Assembly (NCBI RefSeq): GCF_900113525.1
Contig: NZ_FOPP01000005.1
Span: 124,001-188,000, forward strand
Source of the DNA: Pedobacter insulae
GTDB taxonomy: Bacteria > Bacteroidota > Bacteroidia > Sphingobacteriales > Sphingobacteriaceae
Reading direction: 5' to 3'
Length of the DNA: 64,000 nt
Both the position numbers and the translations under genes were made by a program. Of this stretch, positions 32,484 through 34,086 are shown one piece after another. The first letter of the stretch is position 1. The number at the start of each line of letters is the position of its first letter. The notes under the pieces are model-generated. The model worked only from the letters and a program-made list of their open reading frames with translations, did no database searches and was not told the DNA's origin.

Positions 32484-33098
32484 ATGAACATTTCCCTTCA
32501 GAATATTGGTCGCAGATTTAATAAGGAATGGATCTTTAGAGGGATTAACTTTCAGTTTGAACAAGGCTGCAATTATGCCGTTCTAGGGCCAAATGGCTCG
32601 GGTAAATCCACGTTATTGAGCGTACTATTAGGCAGTTTGTCGCCTTCTGAAGGAGATCTAAAATACCATGGGTTAAATGAGATCAAGGTAGATAACATTT
32701 ATCAATACATCAGTTTTGCTGCTCCATACATAGATTTGATTGAAGAGTTTACTTTACAAGAAACAATAGCTTTCCATTTTCAATTTAAGGAGTACGCTGA
32801 GAAACTGAATGCAGCGGGAGTACTCAGCCTGCTTGGACTTGAGAAATCACATGATAAGGCTTTAAAATACTTCTCTTCTGGAATGAAACAACGAACCAAG
32901 CTTGCCTTGGCCTGTTGCAGTAACTCGCCTATCCTTTTACTCGACGAGCCCACCTCTAATTTAGATACACAGGGAGTAGACTGGTACCTGGAATTAATTG
33001 AAAAGTTCGGTCAAGGCAAAATGATTATTATTGGATCTAATCAGCACCATGAATATAGTTTTTGCAATGAGCGTTTGTCAATCAGCGATTACAAGTAA
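32484..33098 (+). CDS. ABC transporter ATP-binding protein
   Basis: This 204-residue ATPase has Walker A GPNGSGKST, signature FSSGMKQRTKLALA, Walker B PILLLDEPTSNLD and a switch His region (NQHHEYSFC). It is short, without an adjacent permease gene, although it lies 28 bases after lpxA and probably shares the lipid A transcript. Candidates are a partner for a permease elsewhere or an export ATPase of the CcmA/NatA class. The substrate is unknown. Confidence 0.88.
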   Translation: MNISLQNIGRRFNKEWIFRGINFQFEQGCNYAVLGPNGSGKSTLLSVLLGSLSPSEGDLKYHGLNEIKVDNIYQYISFAAPYIDLIEEFTLQETIAFHFQFKEYAEKLNAAGVLSLLGLEKSHDKALKYFSSGMKQRTKLALACCSNSPILLLDEPTSNLDTQGVDWYLELIEKFGQGKMIIIGSNQHHEYSFCNERLSISDYK

Positions 33099-33186: not shown

Positions 33187-33218
33187 GTTGTGTAATTGAA
33201 AAATAGTATTTACCTTTG
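33187..33218 (+). promoter_or_regulatory. promoter of a putative small RNA gene
   Basis: GTTG (33187-33190), 20 bases, then TACCTTTG (33211-33218) matches the phylum promoter apart from one base in the upstream box. The -7 box and the following bases (TACCTTTGCGCC) are identical to those before the peroxiredoxin gene. Confidence 0.6.
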
Positions 33219-33224
33219 CGCCAC

Positions 33225-33393
33225 GAAACAGGGCGGAATATTTGCACAGTTATCGTATAATATGATTAAAACAACTTGCTTTAAATTCTTAAATAGGACG
33301 ACAAAGCAAATATAATAATAAGAATTTTCATAGTTTAGTTTTAGGTTTAGGTTGATTGTAGCTTCGGAGTGGTTCCCGAAGCTATCTTTTTTT
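33225..33393 (+). ncRNA. putative small RNA gene with pseudoknot-like helices and intrinsic terminator
   Basis: This about 170-base segment lies in the 381-base gap between the ABC ATPase and efp, and no credible open reading frame is in it. It has its own promoter. It ends in a perfect nine-base hairpin (33359-33367 with 33376-33384) followed by seven T. Inside, TTGCTTT (33276-33282) pairs with AAAGCAA (33303-33309), while AAATTCTTA (33283-33291) pairs with TAAGAATTT (33319-33327). The two helices cross, so they form a pseudoknot or are alternatives. I do not recognise it as 6S, SRP, tmRNA or RNase P RNA: its ends do not pair as in 6S. It could be a trans-acting RNA or an attenuated leader of efp. 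The rest of the gap, 33099-33186 and 33394-33479, holds nothing else I can name except the weak efp promoter. Confidence 0.5.
33359..33393 (+). terminator. intrinsic terminator ending the putative small RNA
   Basis: TAGCTTCGG, an eight-base loop and CCGAAGCTA form a perfect stem, followed by TCTTTTTTT. It lies 87 bases before the efp start, so efp needs a promoter downstream of it or readthrough. Confidence 0.85.
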
Positions 33394-33442: not shown

Positions 33443-33464
33443 TACCTTGCGACTTTAAAAAGTC
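33443..33464 (+). promoter_or_regulatory. possible efp -7 element and leader hairpin
   Basis: TACCTTGC (33443-33450) is one mismatch from the TAnnTTTG box; no good TTTG box lies upstream. It is followed at once by GACTTT-AA-AAAGTC (33451-33464), a small perfect inverted repeat in the would-be efp leader. Confidence 0.3.
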
Positions 33465-33479
33465 CTTTACAAAAATATT

Positions 33480-34040
33480 ATGGCAAAAGCATCAGAAATA
33501 AAAGTTGGTAACATCCTTCGTGTTAATAAAGAATTAGTTACAGTAGAAGAATGGAATCACCGCACACCAGGTAAAGGTGGTGCATTTTACACAGGTAAAT
33601 TTCGTAACATTAAAACTTCCAGACTGGTAGAAGCTCGTATGAATACGGACGAGGTAGTGGAGATTTGTCGAGTTGAAACGAATGACTATCAATATTTGTA
33701 TGAAGATGGTGATTATCTCGTGGTAATGGATAATACCAGCTATGAGCAATTTAACGTACCTAAAACACTTTTCGGCCCATCTATTAAATTTTTAAAAGAA
33801 GGAATGAGCATTTTGGTAGCAATAGAAAGTGAAGAGCCAATCCAAGCAAGTATCCCTAATTTTGTAGAAATGGAAGTTGTTTATTCTGAGCCAGCGGTTA
33901 AGGGAGACACTTCTACAAACGCATTAAAAGCTGCTACGGTTGAAAACGATGTGGAAATTAAAGTTCCGATGTTTGTAAACCAAGGCGATAGAGTTAAAAT
34001 CGATACGCGTACCGGCGAGTACGTGGAACGGGTAAAATAA
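33480..34040 (+). CDS. efp: elongation factor P
   Basis: This 186-residue, three-domain translation factor relieves ribosome stalling at consecutive prolines. The KOW-like domain holds the tip loop HRTPGKGGAF with Lys32, the residue that is modified in some lineages. The central and C-terminal OB domains end with the usual GDRVKIDTRTGEYVERV. Length is normal. No epmA, epmB, earP or ymfI-like modification gene is adjacent, so the state of Lys32 cannot be told. Confidence 0.97.
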   Translation: MAKASEIKVGNILRVNKELVTVEEWNHRTPGKGGAFYTGKFRNIKTSRLVEARMNTDEVVEICRVETNDYQYLYEDGDYLVVMDNTSYEQFNVPKTLFGPSIKFLKEGMSILVAIESEEPIQASIPNFVEMEVVYSEPAVKGDTSTNALKAATVENDVEIKVPMFVNQGDRVKIDTRTGEYVERVK

Positions 34041-34048
34041 GCCATAAC

Positions 34049-34086
34049 TTGTCATCCGGAGTGCTTCATTACGCTCTGGATGACAA
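34049..34086. repeat. 13-bp inverted repeat after efp (hairpin, repeat element or terminator)
   Basis: TTGTCATCCGGAG (34049-34061) and CTCTGGATGACAA (34074-34086) pair at 12 of 13 positions around a 12-base loop. It lies nine bases after the efp stop. Only a weak T-rich run (TTCTTCT) follows, so it may be a REP-like element rather than a true terminator. A false upstream start of the next gene falls inside it. Confidence 0.7.

Follow-up and report, generated by a model that had tools for sequence, protein, structure and literature searches.

A small RNA gene of Pedobacter, predicted to yield a transcript of about 170 nt, ends in a highly conserved module that appears to have begun as the 3' end of efp mRNA and that is complementary to the start regions of SusC genes. 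From the comparative sequence data, and by analogy with FopS of Bacteroides, we consider it somewhat probable that this is a trans-acting, FopS-like RNA that represses SusC translation, and the RNA probably tunes nutrient (sugar) uptake. The features of the locus, which lies within the 64-kb stretch of DNA that was analysed (the "window"), are collected in Table 1.

Table 1. Features of the RNA locus and its neighbours, in window coordinates.
Feature	Coordinates	Strand	Remarks
ABC-transporter ATPase gene	32484..33098	+	Constant neighbour upstream of the RNA
RNA promoter	33188..33218	+	TTG (33188-33190), 20 nt, TACCTTTG (33211-33218); from sequence
Predicted RNA, about 170 nt	33224..33393	+	Start placed from the promoter
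Variable leader of the RNA	33224..33324	+	Occupies the place of the efp frame in attached relatives
Two crossing helices of the first-pass annotation	33276..33327	+	True complementarity, without conservation
Conserved core, 33 nt	33325..33357	+	TTTTCATAGTTTAGTTTTAGGTTTAGGTTGATT; complementary to SusC start regions
Terminator hairpin	33358..33393	+	Covarying stem, loop GGAGTGGTTCC, then T run; hairpin 33358-33385
Separate promoter element of the downstream efp	33443..33450	+	TACCTTGC; ACCTTGC in 8 of 8 loci printed
efp, divergent second paralogue	33480..34040	+	From sequence comparison

The first-pass annotation of this segment had proposed an independent small-RNA gene, and the comparative data support that proposal well: the predicted promoter and the core are conserved and the terminator covaries. 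The promoter, TTG followed by TACCTTTG, agrees with the Bacteroidetes-type consensus; the element ACCTTTGC, with similar flanks, is found at all 40 Pedobacter loci where efp is not directly upstream of the module ("free" loci, among them the window's own) and at all 30 where it is ("attached" loci). By this comparison, the promoter that would drive the RNA at free loci is the same one that would drive efp at attached loci. The segment was also correctly described as lacking an open reading frame (the plus strand from 33187 to 33393 has none of 40 amino acids or more) and as ending in an intrinsic terminator, which we find at 33358-33385 with its T run. No Rfam family, 6S included, matched the window at gathering score, which likewise supports the proposal. 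The annotated segment took in the conserved part, 33325-33393, while the origin of that part at the 3' end of efp and its fit to SusC starts were missed. Behind the window's efp is a 5-formyltetrahydrofolate cyclo-ligase gene. The two are separated by a stretch that includes an inverted repeat, TTGTCATCCGGAG / CTCTGGATGACAA (window 34049-34086); with up to three mismatches allowed, its inner 32 nt recur nowhere else in the window.

A DNA search of 118 genomes at E ≤ 0.001 found the gene in 70 of 71 genomes of the same genus, its own included, and in none of the 47 genomes of other genera. In most matched genomes the match spans just the last 70-85 nt of the gene. Taking one locus per matched genome gave a comparative set of 70 Pedobacter loci. 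From CATAG onward the core is identical at 40 of these, carries a single T to G change at 26 and differs otherwise at 4, so that two forms, one base apart, cover 66 of the 70; TTT directly before CATAG and the terminator loop GGAGTGGTTCC are present at all 70. The mean identity of the core is 0.98, compared with 0.42 at third codon positions of the adjacent ABC gene (66 loci). Free and attached loci were counted jointly, and comparison of the rows indicates that the core is equally conserved in both. A 32-nt core pattern occurred in 111 stretches of named genomes, and the 80 of these that were inspected are labelled Pedobacter, apart from three bins (two Sphingobacteriaceae, one Bacteroidota). 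Carriage of the RNA by phages was considered and rejected, as the exact core pattern was not found in viral contigs.

The stem of the terminator varies in a paired manner. In an alignment of 25 of the 70 Pedobacter modules (23 distinct), 98.3% of the stem cells are paired, compared with 89.7% in shuffled alignments, and 17 cells are changed on both sides, compared with 4.0. Two of five covariation measures do not clearly beat the shuffles: pairs with both sides changed number 4 against 2.4 (36 of 500 shuffles) and further pair types 6 against 6.4 (439 of 500 shuffles). RNAalifold, applied to 22 of the 28 rows of the free clade, placed both-side changes in one pair only, within the terminator. 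A hairpin named by hand in the leader of the large free clade shows paired variation, its helix being 80.2% paired, and the whole structure of that clade, terminator included, has 14 cells changed on both sides against 3.8 in shuffles. The leader of the same clade (L064-L089), besides this small covarying hairpin, has a conserved 5' end of its own, CACCACCAAAAAGAG.

The position of efp relative to the module differs among the 70 loci. At 29 of them efp lies solely upstream and its stop codon adjoins or nearly adjoins the start of the module (the gap is about 40 nt in L058), and at one efp lies on both sides, giving the 30 attached loci; the 40 free loci have one copy downstream (13), two downstream (22) or none nearby (5, all in genomes that carry efp elsewhere). 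Pedobacter has two efp paralogues, and a tandem efp pair stands behind the module in several genomes (L052, L066-L089). Outside the genus, 10 of 20 loci picked by hand from the model search, representing six other genera, show the arrangement ABC-efp-module-ligase, in which the module sits at the stop codon of efp. From 26 further genomes of the family, efp was obtained from 24 (22 genera), and the motif stands 10-34 nt behind the efp stop in five of the 24, with a degenerate version in one more (L381); these five share four genera and two genomes with the earlier 10 loci. In most of the other genera sampled efp is not followed by the module, and in several other genera the module lacks UUUUCAU and retains just UUAGGUUUAGGUUGAUU.

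Because the module follows the efp stop at 30 of the 70 Pedobacter loci and at 10 loci of six other genera, we infer that it originated at the 3' end of efp. On this evidence, which consists of sequence comparisons, the ancestral module formed the 3' end of efp mRNA and the attached state is ancestral, though patchy. A quick tree of the ABC gene, which has several long branches and includes 66 of the 70 Pedobacter loci (four lack a usable ABC gene), implies five changes between the attached and free states, at least four of them forced by starred branches; 10 of 10 outgroup rows are attached. As comparison of the loci shows, several Pedobacter lineages have lost the efp frame that once separated promoter and module, leaving what appears to be a stand-alone RNA gene. 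Decayed efp end codons can still be read before the core at four free loci (L015, L023, L050 and L051), where a stop replaces an efp glutamate; they are not recognisable in the window's leader. Like a 3'-UTR-derived sRNA, the module runs from the 3' end of an mRNA to that mRNA's terminator, and in the window the efp frame itself is gone. The repeated loss of the frame ahead of a 3'-UTR RNA, with RNA and promoter kept, amounts to a natural experiment, and it argues that selection at these loci kept the RNA and not efp.

The reverse complement of the core resembles a translation start, CCTAAAACTAAACTATGAAAA. The mean duplex energy of the core is -15.2 kcal/mol with 50 SusC starts of its own genome and -15.0 kcal/mol with 30 SusC starts of a second Pedobacter genome (G028), compared with -12.8 kcal/mol for 30 SusD starts and -11.3 kcal/mol for 47 other genes of the window. 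When 150 dinucleotide-shuffled cores that retained TTTTCA were used instead, the real value was reached by none for own-genome SusC, by one for G028 SusC, by 7 for SusD, which therefore also shows a slight fit, and by 100 for the window genes. The starts were those of 50 of the 56 own-genome SusC matches (30 with loci and 20 fetched; three of the six omitted were over the cut-off), 30 of the 56 SusC matches listed for G028, 30 of 48 SusD genes, and 47 of 49 window ORFs, the two of at least 900 amino acids being left out; SusC and SusD starts were chosen by likeness to a signal peptide and those of window genes by the longest ORF. The SusC excess persists when each control is allowed its best-fitting ATG (p = 0.0001) and also in a comparison restricted to ATGAA starts (p = 6 × 10-5 against window genes, 0.008 against SusD).

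AACC occurs 0.84 times per 40-nt leader before SusC in the own genome and 1.03 times in G028, compared with 0.20 for SusD and 0.17 for window genes. Part of the fit may be a matter of composition, since A and C are more frequent overall in SusC leaders than in the controls. Against leaders alone, the part of the core kept across genera, TTTAGGTTTAGGTTGATT, beats 100 of 100 shuffles for own-genome SusC but only 95 of 100 for G028 SusC, and as many for SusD. In the own genome the first GG of the core is paired in 84 and 96% of SusC starts, compared with 64 and 79% of controls; for the second GG the figures are 72 and 84% compared with 83 and 79%, with no SusC excess. Most individual SusC sites are weak, that of the window's own SusC gene reaching -9.6 kcal/mol, and strong sites are few, though in excess of expectation: 7 of the 50 own-genome starts are at or below -20 kcal/mol (0.97 expected) and three at or below -25 kcal/mol (0.06 expected). 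A single, nearly complete antisense target was rejected as an explanation; the genome contains two 22-nt matches with at most three mismatches, one the gene itself and the other without a start codon. The SusC leaders that carry AACC form a directly testable set of candidate targets. As an observation in its own right, AACC is about five times more frequent before SusC starts (L203-L253 in the own genome, L315-L344 in G028) than before SusD or window genes, and it may have a regulatory or translational role in SusC leaders regardless of how the RNA acts.

The known RNA that this one most resembles is FopS (RF04319), the best of eight Rfam matches at E ≤ 10. According to the FopS report (PMC11697453), the two have in common a terminal terminator hairpin in a Bacteroidota sRNA, an unpaired stretch upstream of it with an anti-start-codon UUUUCAU that fits susC start regions, and, for one FopS member, derivation from a 3' UTR. 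The Pedobacter RNA also has an apparently canonical promoter of its own along with the 3' terminator, and in two genomes it has a seed that is statistically complementary to susC starts, by a different sequence. Membership in the FopS family was rejected: the model scores 26.5 bits on this RNA, compared with the Rfam cut-off of 56, and none of 41 genomes exceeded that cut-off. Weak FopS matches coincide with the module in 13 of 25 same-genus genomes searched, and a FopS scan of 20 related loci gave no match at E ≤ 1. FopS is about 65-70 nt long and present in 14 copies in B. thetaiotaomicron, whereas the RNA described here is predicted to be about 170 nt long and is a single copy, its genome containing one match to our module model R1 at E ≤ 0.1 and one to the FopS model at E ≤ 1; some other Pedobacter genomes contain weaker second copies of the module. 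The core and the FopS consensus are weakly alike (621 of 20000 shuffles and 10 of 18274 window 41-mers do as well). With the SusC starts of Pedobacter the FopS consensus shows no fit (of 80 shuffles, 23 are as low for the own genome and 12 for G028); it does fit SusD starts (0 of 80 shuffles as low). On this reading, the RNA works like FopS without being a member of its family.

In the mechanism we propose, the functional part of the RNA would be the 3' module, where an unpaired core precedes the terminator hairpin. Acting in trans, the (A)GGUU boxes of the core would pair with AACC in SusC mRNA leaders and its UUUUCAU with the SusC start codon (AUGAAAA), and this pairing would block initiation of translation and reduce the uptake of particular glycans, as with FopS in Bacteroides. 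At attached loci the RNA would arise by processing of the efp mRNA or from a start within that mRNA; at free loci it would be a primary transcript. The single RRM_1 protein found in the genome is a candidate partner. Repression is proposed because FopS, the analogous RNA, blocks susC translation, an effect that RbpB counters (PMC11697453). Control of SusC porins by sRNA is established in gut Bacteroides (PMC11697453); in Pedobacter, which belongs to another family of the phylum, an apparently different RNA would be directed at the same kind of target. The proposal also has parallels outside Bacteroidota. Enterobacteria have 3'-UTR-derived and porin-repressing sRNAs such as CpxQ, RybB and MicA. 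With these the Pedobacter RNA shares a 3'-end module with a terminator and a presumed action in trans, and their repression of porin mRNAs at the start site follows the logic proposed here. It differs from them in belonging to another phylum, in outliving its host frame, and in that its repression of a porin is a prediction. No report of this RNA was found in searches of openly accessible papers, which take in few of the subscription journals.

Other explanations of the conserved module must be weighed. The core may be mainly a site for an RNA-binding protein of the RRM type, with UUUAGGUUUAGGUU read as a single strand and the RNA carrying or titrating the protein, so that the fit to SusC would be secondary. 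The lone RRM_1 protein of the genome is consistent with this idea, as is the fact that what persists across genera is the G/U-rich repeat and not the anti-start part, and RbpB of Bacteroides binds the FopS motif (PMC11697453). We regard it as unlikely to be the main explanation; it does not predict the SusC-start fit, which shuffled cores lack in two genomes. Protein binding and pairing with SusC are nonetheless compatible, and both can be true. The module could also be no more than the 3' UTR and terminator of efp, affecting the ending or stability of the mRNA in cis and kept at free loci for termination. Its ancestral place behind efp and the quality of the hairpin as a terminator accord with a role in cis, but termination does not need a 33-nt core at 0.98 identity, and the free loci, with no efp frame to serve, still keep both promoter and core; we judge this improbable. 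That the RNA of the free loci is a functionless, decaying relic of efp we find barely credible. The variable leader and the decayed codons at four loci look like decay, yet the core is conserved equally in free and attached loci, and the leader hairpin of the large free clade varies in a paired way.

A further alternative is that the RNA is a leader or switch controlling the downstream efp. The first-pass annotation had described two crossing helices as a pseudoknot or a pair of mutually exclusive structures; both are exact as given (33276-33282 with 33303-33309, 7 bp; 33283-33291 with 33319-33327, 9 bp), and in the window the RNA directly precedes efp. The variable leader contains both left arms, the right arm of the 7-bp helix and most of that of the 9-bp helix. 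With no nucleotide between the two left arms, the helices could hardly form at the same time, and a third helix of 8 bp (33238-33245 with 33306-33313) competes for the right arm of the first. Of 3000 sequences made by dinucleotide shuffling of the 138-nt body, 27 (0.9%) contain a crossing pair of 7 and 9 bp, as do 5 of 926 138-nt segments of the window, and a few such pairs are therefore to be expected by chance in any reading of 64 kb. The 9-bp helix is absent in all five relatives examined (L009-L013), and the 7-bp helix is kept in only one of them (L009), shifted by one base. The whole RNA folds no better than its shuffles (z = -0.68), nor does the body alone (z = +0.38). The significance given to the crossing is thus not sustained, and we rejected a pseudoknot or switch: what the annotation had marked is a real transcription unit in which the crossing helices are most likely chance pairings. 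A role as an efp leader was also rejected, because the RNA ends in a terminator and efp has its own promoter, which lies behind that terminator at 8 of the 8 loci printed; in other relatives, moreover, efp precedes the module or is located at another place in the genome. Control of efp by a leader or switch is accordingly very improbable.

Returning to the proposed trans-acting RNA, sequences resembling its module are found well beyond Pedobacter. Model R1 has matches in 218 of 301 genomes of the family at E ≤ 0.1; the 69 listed same-genus genomes score at or below 2.8 × 10-17, and other genera are far weaker (best 5.8 × 10-11). Across the class, 16 of 395 genomes match at E ≤ 0.001, seven of them in the family. 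Of 22 loci fetched from places other than efp, 10 start no more than 20 nt from the stop codon that closes an ORF of at least 100 codons, five of these ORFs being Hsp20-like and one ClpB, and at two further loci an Hsp20-like ORF ends about 120 nt upstream. Three of the Hsp20 assignments and one of ClpB are confirmed by Pfam; the others were named by the likeness of their ends. The class-wide pattern is to be taken as a lead and not as a count, since the weak matches are not all certain and the loci were chosen by score and by hand. The modules linked to chaperone genes could possibly constitute a stress-linked set of sRNAs. A more sweeping idea, which we offer tentatively and would not expect to hold in full, is that sRNAs born as the 3' ends of hsp20, clpB and efp repress SusC-type porins under stress throughout Bacteroidia, as a counterpart to RybB and MicA, and that in Pedobacter one of them became a gene of its own several times through loss of the frame.

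The chaperone-associated loci (L296, L299, L300, L311 and L314, Hsp20-like; L303, ClpB) come from Pedobacter and also from further genera and families of the class. In one Pedobacter genome (G062) a second copy of the module, scoring 60.8 bits, stands directly behind a tRNA gene (L298).
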